DNA from: Candidatus Zixiibacteriota bacterium
Lineage (GTDB): Bacteria; Zixibacteria; MSB-5A5; UM-FILTER-46-8
Reading direction: 5' to 3'
DNA length: 32,538 nt
Assembly (NCBI GenBank): GCA_014730345.1
Contig: WJIJ01000200.1
Span: 1-32,538, forward strand
The notes below the pieces were generated by a model. That model was not told the DNA's origin. It saw nothing but the letters and a program-made list of their open reading frames with translations, and made no database searches. The translations under genes were made by a program, and so were the position numbers. Shown one piece after another: positions 10,488 to 13,728 of this stretch (position 1 is the first letter of the stretch; the number at the start of each line of letters is the position of its first letter).

Positions 10488-10919
10488 ATGAAATCATTCA
10501 AGATAAATAACGGTTACCTTCTCCGGCTCGATAAGGGAGAGGAAGTTGTCAGTTCGGTGTTGAATTTCGTGGAGGATGAAGGAATCGGTTCAGCCATGGT
10601 TACCGCTATCGGGGCGGTTACCGACTGTGTGCTGGGATACTTCGACCGGGAGCGGAAGACATATCTCAACAAAAACTTCAATGATATTTACGAACTCGTG
10701 TCCTTGAACGGGAATATCACCTTCTTCGACGGCAAGCCCGTACTCCATGCCCATGTTTGCCTGGGAAATCCTCATTTCGAGATATTCGGCGGCCATTTTT
10801 TCTCTGGCATGGTCGCGGTTACCGCGGAGATTTTTATCATAGAAACCGGGTCCCGGATTACAAGGGCGCACAATGCAGAACTGGATTTGAATCTTATCGA
10901 CTCGGAAGAAAATGGTTAG
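10488..10919 (+). CDS. PPC-domain protein (DUF296)
   Basis: A 143-residue single-domain protein of the 'plants and prokaryotes conserved' family. Core motifs are TAIGAVTDCVLGYFD, YELVSLNGNIT, HAHVCLG and FGGHFFSGMV. His88, His90 and the His of GGHF match the metal ligands of the bacterial trimers. Plant homologues are AT-hook DNA-binding proteins; bacterial members lack the AT hook, as here, and their function is not established. It starts 12 bases after cutA and overlaps the next gene by eight bases. Confidence 0.87.
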   Translation: MKSFKINNGYLLRLDKGEEVVSSVLNFVEDEGIGSAMVTAIGAVTDCVLGYFDRERKTYLNKNFNDIYELVSLNGNITFFDGKPVLHAHVCLGNPHFEIFGGHFFSGMVAVTAEIFIIETGSRITRAHNAELDLNLIDSEENG

Positions 10920-11697
10920 ACCGTCGGGAATAATTACAATCATAACCGATTTCGGCCATGATGATTATTTTGTCGGAGCGTTAAAAGGGGCTATGCTGAC
11001 CCAGAATCCCGGCGCGCGATTGGTCGATGTTTCGCACGATGTCCTGCCCGGGGATATCAGGCACGGCGCGTATATACTTGCCAATAGTTATCCTGAATTC
11101 CCCCCGGGTACTGTTCACTATTGCGTGGTCGACCCCGGCGTTGGTTCTTCGAGAAAGCCGCTTGCCATTTATAGCAATGAACACTATTTCGTGGTTCCGG
11201 ACAATGGCATTGTCTACCCCGGAATAGCCGAGTTTCCCTATAAAGCCTATGAAATTAACCCGGGTTATCTCAGCGGCGCCGACATTTCAAGAACATTTCA
11301 CGGCAGAGACATATTCGCTCCAACTTCCGGATTGCTCTCCTCCGGCTTGGATATATCTGAATTGGGAGAACAGGTAGAGCTAATTACCCATTATGCTTTT
11401 CCGGAACCGGAAAAAATCGAAACCGGGTTGAAGGGCGAGGTTCTGCATATAGACCGGTTTGGAAATATCGTAACCAATTTCGAAAATGGAATTCTCAAAT
11501 ATTTTGATAGTCCCGTGCTTATGGCCAATGATTTCAAAGTTGAGCTTGTTTTCGATTATTATCACGAAACCCCCGGCAATAAGCCATTTATCATCAGGGG
11601 TTCCGCGGGATTTCTGGAAATCTCGGTCAGGGATTCTTCGGCGAAGATGAAACTCGGAGTCGGCGTGGGGGCGGAGTTGTTGTTGACTGGAGAATGA
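10912..11697 (+). CDS. SAM hydroxide adenosyltransferase (SAM hydrolase, DUF62)
   Basis: A 261-residue member of the family that splits S-adenosylmethionine with water or hydroxide into adenosine and methionine; it is related to the SAM-dependent fluorinase and chlorinase. Diagnostic parts are [18 protein letters not shown] at the start, [52 protein letters not shown] and the C-terminal-domain motif [11 protein letters not shown]. The Asp, Arg and His that orient the nucleophilic hydroxide in the family appear to be in place (GDIRHG, FHGRD). The physiological purpose is unclear; adjusting SAM in a one-carbon gene cluster is a reasonable guess. It overlaps the PPC gene by eight bases. Confidence 0.93.
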
Positions 11698-11698
11698 T

Positions 11699-12217
11699 TT
11701 GAAAAATAATAATCGCCCTTCCTGGGATTCATATTTCATGTCCATGGCCGAACTGGTCAGCAGGCGTTCTACTTGCCTCAGGCGGCAGGTGGGAGCGGTA
11801 ATCGTAAAAGAAAAACGATTGCTGGCAACCGGTTACAATGGCGCGCCTTCCGGATTGCCCCATTGTTTGGATATAGGGTGTATGCGGGAGAAACTGAAAG
11901 TCCCATCGGGTGAGCGGCATGAATTGTGCCGTGCTATTCACGCCGAGCAAAACGCGCTGGTACAGGCGGCGTCATTCGGAGTGTCGGTCAGGGGAGCGGT
12001 TATCTATTCAACCACTTATCCCTGCAGTTTATGCGCTAAGATGCTGATAAACGCCGGTATAACCGGAATAATCGTCAAGGATGGTTATCCCGATAAGATG
12101 GCTTCGGAGATGCTGGAACAAGCCGGAATAGAAGTACGTACCTTCAAAGATGACGAGAAAGGTATTTCTGAGAACTATGACGATTTGCTCTTGCCTGATG
12201 AGGGATTGAAAAAATGA
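11699..12217 (+). CDS. dCMP/CMP deaminase (ComEB type)
   Basis: Zinc deaminase converting dCMP to dUMP, the precursor of dTMP. The 172-residue product has the zinc motif HAEQNAL (His81, catalytic Glu83) and PCSLC (Cys109, Cys112), and the family N-terminus [28 protein letters not shown]. The extra CxxxxC-type segment [11 protein letters not shown], found in many dCMP deaminases, is also present. The only start that keeps the conserved N-terminus is a TTG at 11699, with TGGAGA about six bases upstream; the next ATG (11738) would remove it. Its end overlaps nrdR by four bases. Deaminase, glyA and nrdR together suggest a deoxynucleotide and thymidylate supply unit. Confidence 0.92.
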
Positions 12218-12972
12218 GATGTCCATATTGCAGCGGTCAATCCGATAGAGTTGTTGATTCCAGATCAGTAGCCGGCGGTGAAGCAGTTCGCCGGCGGAGG
12301 GAATGCACGTCGTGCGGCAAACGATATACAACTTATGAGTACGTGGAGCATTCCGGATTGCAGGTCGTTAAAAATGATGGCAAGCGCGAGGAATTTAATC
12401 GCGGTAAGTTGGTAAATGGAATAATGCTGGCCTGCAAAAAGCGCCCGGTTTCCAAGGCATCCATCGATAAAATCGGCGAAGATATTGAAAACATGGTTTT
12501 CCAGGAATCCAAGGGCGAGGTTACATCCCGCAGGATTGGCGAATTGGTTATGGACAAACTCCGGGAGCTCGATGATATCGCCTATGTAAGGTTCGCTTCT
12601 GTATACCGCAATTTCAGGGATAAAGATGAATTCCTCGAAGAATTGAAAGAACTTCCCCAGACAATGACCGTAATTAAATCCAATGGCGGCAGGCAGGGCT
12701 TCGACCGCGGTAAGATGATTAAGGGAATCAGGATGGCCTGTAATAAGCGCCCGGTCAGCGAAGAAGCTATCGAGAAAATCGCCGATAAAGTTATATCTGG
12801 CCTTAACCCCAATGATAAAGGGGAGGTGGGCAGTAAAGATATAGGGCGATTGATATCCGAAGAACTGCGCCATATTGACGAAGTGGCTTATGTCCGGTTC
12901 GCCTCGGTTTACCGTAATTTTCAGGATAAGAGCGAATTTTTAAACCAGTTGAAAGATTTGCTTGGCGATTGA
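12214..12972 (+). CDS. nrdR: NrdR-type repressor with duplicated ATP-cone
   Basis: NrdR represses ribonucleotide reductase genes when its ATP-cone senses dATP. Residues 1-48 are the normal zinc ribbon, with Cys3/Cys6 and Cys31/Cys34, [16 protein letters not shown] and RYTTYE. An ordinary NrdR then has one ATP-cone and ends near 150. This one has 252 residues, with cone 1 at 49-147 and a second complete cone at 151-249. Both keep the features VxK, FxRGK, GI, AC, KRPVS, KGEV and [19 protein letters not shown]. My ungapped hand alignment gives about 51 identical residues of 99. The start codon overlaps the deaminase stop (ATGA) and tatC begins three bases after the stop. No recognisable NrdR box was found in the window; its targets lie elsewhere. 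Confidence 0.95.
12358..12960 (+). repeat. Tandem duplication of the ATP-cone coding segment
   Basis: Bases 12358-12654 and 12664-12960 encode homologous 99-residue ATP-cones separated by three codons, with an offset of 306 bases. Protein similarity is strong, but synonymous positions differ throughout (compare the codons for [11 protein letters not shown] in each copy). This points to an old duplication kept by selection rather than a recent copy or an assembly error. Confidence 0.92.
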
Positions 12973-12975
12973 TAG

Positions 12976-13728
12976 ATGACAGAGGATCGTGATTCCAAAG
13001 AGATGCCTTTTCTCGAACATTTGGAAGAGTTGAGAAGGCGCATATTGAAGAGCCTGGCGGCGATATTGATTTTTGGAATTGCCGCTTTTTTCTTCTCTGA
13101 TTTCATCTTTGATTTCCTGCAGTATCCCCTGCAGAAAGCGGTACCGGATATACAACTTCATTTTTTCGGCGTGACCGAGGCGTTCCTAACAAGGATAAAA
13201 CTTGCCCTGCTTGGCGGCGTTTTTTTTGCTATGCCGATTATTCTCTATCAGCTCTGGCAGTTCGTGGTCCCCGGCTTGCTCGAGAGTGAAATAAAAGTAA
13301 TTATCCCGCTGATGATCGTATCTACTATCTTCTTCGTTATAGGTTCCGGGTTTTGCTTTTATGTAGTCGCCCGTTATGGATTGAAATATCTCATAATCGC
13401 CAACCAACCCCCGGATACCCTGCCAATCCTTGGACTGGGCTCGTATTACTCCTTTATAATGTGGCTGATGATAGCCTTCGGTCTTGTTTTCGAACTTCCC
13501 GTAATCGCCTACTTTTTGGGCAAAATCGGAATTATTAATTCGAAGATGATGGCCAGCGGGCGGCGTTACGCGATAATCGGAATCCTGCTTGTTTCCTCGT
13601 TCATTACACCACCGGATCTGTTCACCCAGGTTACTCTGGGTGTACCGCTATACCTTCTTTACGAAGCGAGTATAATAGTGGTTAGGCTTACCGGCAGGAG
13701 GGAAAAACCACAGGAGGATATTGATTAA
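12976..13728 (+). CDS. tatC: Sec-independent translocase subunit TatC
   Basis: Multi-spanning inner-membrane receptor for twin-arginine signal peptides. The 250-residue protein begins with the cytoplasmic signature MPFLEHLEELRRRI, carries the conserved periplasmic FxxTEAF-like FGVTEAFLTRIKLAL segment, QLWQFVVPGLLESE, and later FGLVFELPVIAYFLGK and SFITPPDLFTQ. About six hydrophobic spans can be counted. A short charged C-terminus follows. It lies three bases after nrdR; tatA/B are not in the window. It probably ends the long rpiB-to-tatC transcript, although no hairpin terminator is visible after it. Confidence 0.96.
   Translation: MTEDRDSKEMPFLEHLEELRRRILKSLAAILIFGIAAFFFSDFIFDFLQYPLQKAVPDIQLHFFGVTEAFLTRIKLALLGGVFFAMPIILYQLWQFVVPGLLESEIKVIIPLMIVSTIFFVIGSGFCFYVVARYGLKYLIIANQPPDTLPILGLGSYYSFIMWLMIAFGLVFELPVIAYFLGKIGIINSKMMASGRRYAIIGILLVSSFITPPDLFTQVTLGVPLYLLYEASIIVVRLTGRREKPQEDID

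Follow-up and report, generated by a model that had tools for sequence, protein, structure and literature searches.

The gene at positions 12214..12972 on the forward strand of the window (the whole stretch of 32,538 nucleotides of Candidatus Zixiibacteriota DNA that was analysed) encodes what is, judged by its sequence, a real and conserved variant of the known repressor NrdR, in which one zinc ribbon is followed by two ATP-cones, a layout that has apparently been undescribed so far. No description of a two-cone NrdR was found in the open-access literature searched, and the same literature yielded no paper on NrdR in Zixibacteria and no experiment on any double-cone NrdR. The open frame starts with ATG, runs for 252 residues plus a stop codon, and comprises a zinc ribbon (residues 1-42, 12214..12339; PF22811, 70.5 bits), a first ATP-cone (residues 49-149, 12358..12660) and a second ATP-cone (residues 152-251, 12667..12966), both cones being matched by Pfam and their limits set by a cone profile built for this analysis. 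Against Pfam, the protein returned Zn_ribbon_NrdR and two ATP-cone stretches for a total of 155.4 bits (cut-off 25.8), and the NCBIfam NrdR model TIGR00244 matched it in two stretches at 281.6 bits (cut-off 124.65), in agreement with the initial annotation, which had read, from the letters alone, an NrdR whose single zinc ribbon is followed by two complete ATP-cones. The ribbon carries the two CxxC pairs, D15/R17 and R26-R29 of an NrdR ribbon, all of which were invariant in 15/15 aligned double-cone proteins. The whole protein matched solved NrdR structures through the ribbon plus cone 1, cone 2 alone matched PDB NrdR cones (E 2.7e-19), and no match to the catalytic barrel of ribonucleotide reductase (PF02867) was obtained up to E 0.01. 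Since the NrdR outlined in PMC9110341 has a single cone and 140-220 residues, the two cones and 252 residues found here make the protein a variant rather than a plain member of the family.

Aligned without gaps, the two cones are identical at 51/98 residues, as against a mean of 7 and a maximum of 18 in 2000 shuffles, which bears out an earlier hand count of about 51%, and the FxRGK, KRPVS and third, 11-letter elements noted at the same time are present in both. At the nucleotide level 174/294 positions are identical, and of the 51 identical residues only 23 are encoded by the same codon, so the duplication is old and not a recent copy, in line with the divergence at synonymous sites reported in the initial annotation. 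The last helix of cone 1 is connected to the first strand of cone 2, in the predicted secondary structure, by a six-residue joint (residues 146-151, 12649..12666), and no gap occurs between residues 126 and 167 in 50/50 aligned relatives of the window type. Upstream, a dCMP-deaminase-like gene on the same strand (11699..12217; PF00383, with a ComEB-like match below cut-off) overlaps the nrdR start by 4 bases and is a probable co-transcribed neighbour, and downstream the next gene is tatC (12976..13728, forward strand), which serves as a locus marker in single-cone relatives. A gene resembling SAM hydroxide adenosyltransferase / hydrolase (10912-11697 of the window) lies two genes before nrdR and apparently belongs to the same gene run.

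Within the phylum Zixibacteria, 101/132 genomes had an NrdR match, and by match length together with open frame the double-cone form was present in eight of the 132, distributed over three families: f17 (5/5 genomes), f3 (2/2) and f1 (1/4, the window's own genome, an assembly of 204 contigs, of which the window is contig 153, with 3.58 Mb and 92.7% completeness). The other three f1 genomes comprise two with a single-cone NrdR of 150 and 149 residues (G120 and G121, respectively) and one in which NrdR was not found. By motif search, a deaminase-like gene precedes nrdR in G120, G006 and G007, and tatC follows it in G120, G006, G007, G115, G116 and G117, as it does by eye in G121; neither gene was detected beside nrdR in G118 and G119 by the same motif search. 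Protein searches, the first of which scored 8000 proteins and was dominated by single-cone proteins and was followed by a shifted length window and a second query, gave across all three at least 66 two-cone proteins among the 306 matches listed, none listed with three cones. Two CxxC pairs within the first 50 residues were present in at least 57 of these 66, made up, among the matches listed, of 56 of the window kind and P0166 from Oscillospiraceae, so that the homologue search proposed at the outset for a ribbon plus two cones recovered at least 56 such proteins among the 306 matches listed, including relatives from Zixibacteria or Zixiibacteriota (P0004, P0008 and P0151). Of the 66 listed, eight (P0176, P0177 and P0231-P0236) form a group in which the ribbon is degenerate or, for P0234, the frame starts within it, and P0167 lacks a ribbon altogether before its two cones. 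In the group of eight, the second CxxC has given way to a C with one or more H after it and the DSR motif is missing, changes from which a different zinc ligand set and a different DNA target probably follow.

Other domain arrangements were encountered in the same searches. P0182 (261 aa) mirrors the layout of the window protein, with two tandem zinc ribbons ahead of a single cone, and in P0192, P0213, P0216, P0225, P0262 and P0269 NrdR is joined to other enzymes according to Pfam accessions, representing either real fusions or merged gene calls. The partners in those six are presumably aminotransferase, cytidylate kinase, deaminase, SHMT, a RibD-like protein and others. In addition, in six phylum genomes (G023, G044, G063, G083, G087 and G091) short open frames of 85-149 residues, distinct from those matched as NrdR or reductase, matched the ATP-cone weakly though above the cut-off and are possibly stand-alone cones.

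In the cone trees restricted to the phylum, all second cones fell on one side of a branch (60/83), and under LG+F+G4 (57 rows, one search each) the free optimum had the same likelihood as the one-duplication tree, with two duplications costing 13.9 log units (p-AU 0.26) and three separate duplications 28.7 log units (p-AU 0.072). One old duplication with subsequent losses in the phylum is the preferred reading. The cone tree proposed in the initial annotation gave a divided answer, since the in-phylum tree favours one old duplication but in trees with distant outgroups the window-type second cones were placed among single cones, apart from other second cones; constraining the first and second cones of each group together was rejected for no group singly (p-AU 0.19-0.30), all of these trees resting on only about 100 columns. 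Aspartate occupies position 55 in 50/50 first cones and 29/29 single cones, and its counterpart in the second cone, position 157, is S, N or T in 49/50, which fits a shared origin of the second cones, but the single cones of S. coelicolor and E. coli likewise have S and N at the equivalent of position 55. In an RpoB tree (27 rows from 30 genomes, G111 and G008 lacking a match and the split G119 being excluded, which leaves 7/8 double-cone genomes), the seven double-cone genomes all lay within one supported half (100/99) without forming a single clade, and three changes were needed. Horizontal transfer between families was considered and is not favoured, given the shared neighbours and similar ribbon within f1.

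Outside the phylum type, the two cones of the same protein grouped together for P0166 (100/98), P0167 (99/81) and the five P0176-group proteins, of eight, that the tree took (96/90). Because each groups its own two cones, these duplications are separate from that of the window protein, and by these groupings the cone is taken to have doubled independently in smaller groups.

The residues of the two cones were compared with those of characterised single cones. In S. coelicolor NrdR, the inner nucleotide site is formed by K50, R51 and E56 and the outer site by K62, and Y128 flips between the ATP and dATP forms (PMC9110341); in E. coli NrdR, K76 is supplied in trans to the partner cone (PMC12176259). 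Even a lone NrdR cone takes up ATP along with a second nucleotide, ATP or dATP (PMC9110341), so the binding of two different nucleotides, which the initial annotation suggested for the fused pair, would be no novelty. Cone 1 of the window protein has equivalents of K50, E56, K62, V127 and Y128, the last being Tyr131 (12604..12606), and cone 2 has the same set, including Tyr233 (12910..12912) at the Y128 position, except for Q161 in place of E56. This glutamine, which among the three nearest relatives is shared with P0004 and not with P0002 and P0003, may weaken cone 2 by replacing the adenine-contacting glutamate. On this residue evidence, both cones of the window protein look able to bind nucleotides and to sense.

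Across 50 aligned proteins of the 56 of the window kind, K50 and K62 are present in 100/100 cones and E56 in 98/100, and the equivalent of Tyr233 is invariant in the 53/53 double-cone proteins of the residue table, as is the switch tyrosine in the 29/29 single cones compared; the table omits P0135, P0148, P0157 and P0161 (odd lengths or ends), P0167 (no ribbon) and the later finds P0238, P0239 and the P0231-P0236 group. In all 8/8 f1/f3-like proteins the Y128 equivalent is kept in both cones, along with V127 and K76. The f17-like proteins show a different pattern, in which cone 1 retains K50, E56 and K62 in 42/42 but the switch tyrosine in only 9/42, the other 33 having H (23), C (3), R (3), S (3) or N (1) in its place, compared to 42/42 for cone 2; V127 (15/42 in cone 1 versus 42/42 in cone 2) and the partner lysine corresponding to E. 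coli K76 (22/42 versus 42/42) follow the same trend. First cones of this branch are also more diverged than second cones (mean identity 0.67 versus 0.775) and less like single cones (40% versus 47%), whereas in the window type the corresponding values are 56% for the first and 54% for the second. Where it could be measured, dN/dS was below 1 for both cones (0.21 and 0.054 in G006/G007), being saturated for cone 1 in G115/G116 and for both cones in G118/G119. Since f17-like cone 1 mostly loses the switch tyrosine and keeps its phosphate contacts and cone 2 keeps both, a division of work between the cones is probable in these descendants, and sensing seems to have shifted to the distal cone of f17-like proteins, though not clearly so in the branch of the window. 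The earlier claim that both copies look functional is accordingly upheld for the residues of the window protein itself and does not extend to f17-like cone 1, which mostly lacks the switch tyrosine.

The sole reductase match in the source genome is a 748-residue B12-dependent class II NrdJ (PRK08665, 1164 bits), encoded behind thyX and without an ATP-cone. There was no match to a class III reductase, nor were ATP-cones found beyond the two in nrdR, in this genome, whose 92.7% completeness means that another reductase or cone could be missed. As the reductase cone was not found, the double-cone NrdR is probably the principal means by which dATP restrains synthesis in the source organism, as far as its gene content indicates. 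The absence of a cone from the reductase was also considered as a reason for the second cone and rejected: frames longer than 400 residues contain an above-cut-off ATP-cone in only 3/132 phylum genomes (G010, G067 and G083), as compared to 127 with a reductase match, whether NrdR is doubled or not.

For the target sites, the NrdR box consensus was taken to be acaCwAtATaTwGtgt. The box weights were the authors' own, and the conserved C and G positions of this consensus agree with those given in PMC9110341. The search for NrdR boxes before nrd genes suggested in the initial annotation yielded a candidate pair, ACCCAACATATTGTTT / CCACAATATAATGTAG, 31 bp apart and upstream of thyX-nrdJ, approximately 37 bases from the thyX start, with a score of 1.66 versus a maximum of 1.48 in 20 shuffles. 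Nothing convincing was present just before nrdJ itself; the operon begins at thyX and the boxes precede thyX. Across the 3.58 Mb, the box-pair pattern, when up to 2 mismatches were allowed, occurred at no place besides thyX-nrdJ, a match that is not independent since the pattern was derived from the thyX boxes, and reversed controls gave 0 and 2 matches, the latter with the mismatches allowed. Within the window, no box pair scored above shuffles, so there is no sign of nrdR autoregulation.

The arrangement was conserved across the double-cone genomes. Scoring as a pair required a spacing of 31-32 bp and a score above every shuffle, a criterion that was fixed after the first matches and used shuffles that kept base composition only. 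Such a pair was present in 7/7 double-cone genomes with a reductase, with a spacing of 31 bp in G007, G117 and G118, as in the source genome, and 32 bp in G115, G116 and G119; no reductase was seen in the half-complete G006. The single-cone G120 and G121 have a pair at 31 bp before the reductase operon, and since they combine one cone with the same locus and the same spacing, the second cone is dispensable for the target. Across 29 genomes, the pair was found in 17/22 with an nrdR match and 1/7 without (Fisher p 0.0055, the criterion being post hoc); this set derives from 30 scanned loci by dropping G008 and G009 (no start motif) and G080 (188 bases upstream) and adding G117 and G118, with G081 counted as having nrdR on a fragment match alone. 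Genomes with nrdR and no pair before this reductase were G025, G037, G054, G060 (f6, further reductase matches) and G107, and the reverse was seen in G082, where a box pair was present and nrdR was not detected. In G111-G114 (f16) and G122, NrdR was not found and no outstanding box pair preceded the reductase, and repressor and sites seem to have been lost together.

The mechanism considered moderately probable is that the protein, as an NrdR-type repressor, still represses thyX-nrdJ as four chains on two boxes, with the second cone adding a second reading of ATP and dATP. NrdR needs two boxes in helical phase (PMC12051234, PMC9110341), since the ribbons form a pair on each box and the paired cones bridge from one box to the other. 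Under the preferred mechanism, chains would still pair cone-to-cone with a neighbouring chain, as in solved NrdRs; each cone would hold ATP in its inner site and ATP or dATP in its outer site, giving four nucleotides per chain; and the DNA-binding shape would be reached once dATP fills the outer sites, with four chains bridging the two boxes, now through eight cones. With two cones in series, repression could start at a different dATP level or set in more steeply, since the extra cones add nucleotide sites. In the f17-like branch, the distal cone would be the likely sensor and the near cone a nucleotide-filled connector, and in the window protein both cones would still act as sensors, as they look. 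Counting against this mechanism are the single-cone relatives G120 and G121 with their 31 bp boxes, the glutamine in cone 2, and the five genomes with nrdR and no pair together with the converse case of G082. AlphaFold models had all three domains well folded (pLDDT 86.1 and 85.5) in an arrangement that was not confident (pTM 0.46 and 0.48), and as they do not fix the domain arrangement, the cone pairing pattern is one that we infer. A further reading, held tentatively and at rather less than an even chance, is that of a two-sensor switch in which each chain would read the ATP/dATP ratio twice through four sites on two cones that evolve separately, with lineages having re-tuned the pair differently (a locked near cone and a sensing distal one in the f17-like branch, two sensing cones in that of the window) and the layout having been reached several times independently.

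The initial annotation had instead raised a pre-formed cone pair within each chain. In that arrangement the two cones of one chain would pair together, replacing the inter-chain pair, and a closed two-chain unit could bind one box, for which it can be said that single NrdR cones dimerise without the ribbon (PMC9110341), that the short joint could hold two cones together, and that the imbalance in the f17-like partner lysine (42/42 in cone 2 versus 22/42 in cone 1) is such as a fixed unequal pair could show. However, the known spacing rule stems from the tetramer bridged by cones, and this tetramer is said in PMC12051234 not to bind a single box, the 31-32 bp spacing is retained in all seven double-cone genomes with a reductase, and AlphaFold produced no confident cone-cone packing. 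Boxes and spacing that have changed little in three families argue for four chains on two boxes, and a self-contained cone pair in each chain is regarded as unlikely.

Quite unlikely, too, is that the second cone is a tolerated passenger, having little effect on sensing, kept for folding or by chance and easily lost. The single-cone NrdR that G120 and G121 carry at this locus would be consistent with this, as would the drift of inner copies in multi-cone reductases, which are thought to be unneeded (PMC9669993), but K50 and K62 are kept in 100/100 cones, the distal tyrosine is kept in 50/50 aligned proteins and dN/dS is well below 1 in both G006/G007 cones, and these results and the several independent origins count against a passenger. 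An assembly artefact or misread second gene is next to impossible, since the layout is repeated in seven other genomes and dozens of proteins and 50 aligned relatives share the joint, in addition to which the gene is a single open frame without a stop, lies 12 kb from the nearer contig end and has copies differing at 47/98 residues, so that the assembly duplication or separate gene named in the initial annotation as grounds against its view can in practice be regarded as refuted.

Known systems offer several points of comparison. NrdR has been called a universal repressor, in bacteria, of the genes for ribonucleotide reductase (PMC12051234), and its switch is explained for one cone per chain. 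With the NrdR of S. coelicolor and E. coli (TIGR00244; PDB 7p37, 9fvr, 9fxk and 9gex), the window protein shares the ribbon residues D15, R17 and R26-R29, the cone fold, K50, E56, K62, F124, V127 and Y128 (with Q for E56 in cone 2), and two boxes about three helix turns apart before the reductase operon; it differs in its second cone and in a target operon that starts with thyX. Closer to hand, the single-cone NrdR of G120 and G121 in family f1 shares the locus before tatC, a similar ribbon and the same 31 bp boxes, with the preceding deaminase gene seen only in G120 of the two, and differs in having one cone. This natural series of single-, double- and half-degenerate double-cone repressors on the same kind of box pair, 31-32 bp apart, makes the contribution of one cone testable, be it to sensing, oligomer size or DNA binding.

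Reductases with several ATP-cones, reportedly treated in Torrents 2006, are a further point of comparison. Pseudomonas aeruginosa NrdA has 2 ATP-cones and a Chlamydia trachomatis reductase 3 (PMC9669993), and these enzymes have no zinc ribbon, whereas the window protein has one. According to the same source the outermost cone stays intact and the inner copy drifts, as in the f17-like branch, although the inner reductase cones vary in ligand residues and f17-like cone 1 keeps K50, E56 and K62 in 42/42. For multi-cone reductases it has been proposed as a rule that the outermost cone remains functional (PMC9669993), a rule that the residue pattern of the double-cone repressors parallels, and an extra cone would, on the residues it retains, give the repressor a second reading of the cellular dATP level.
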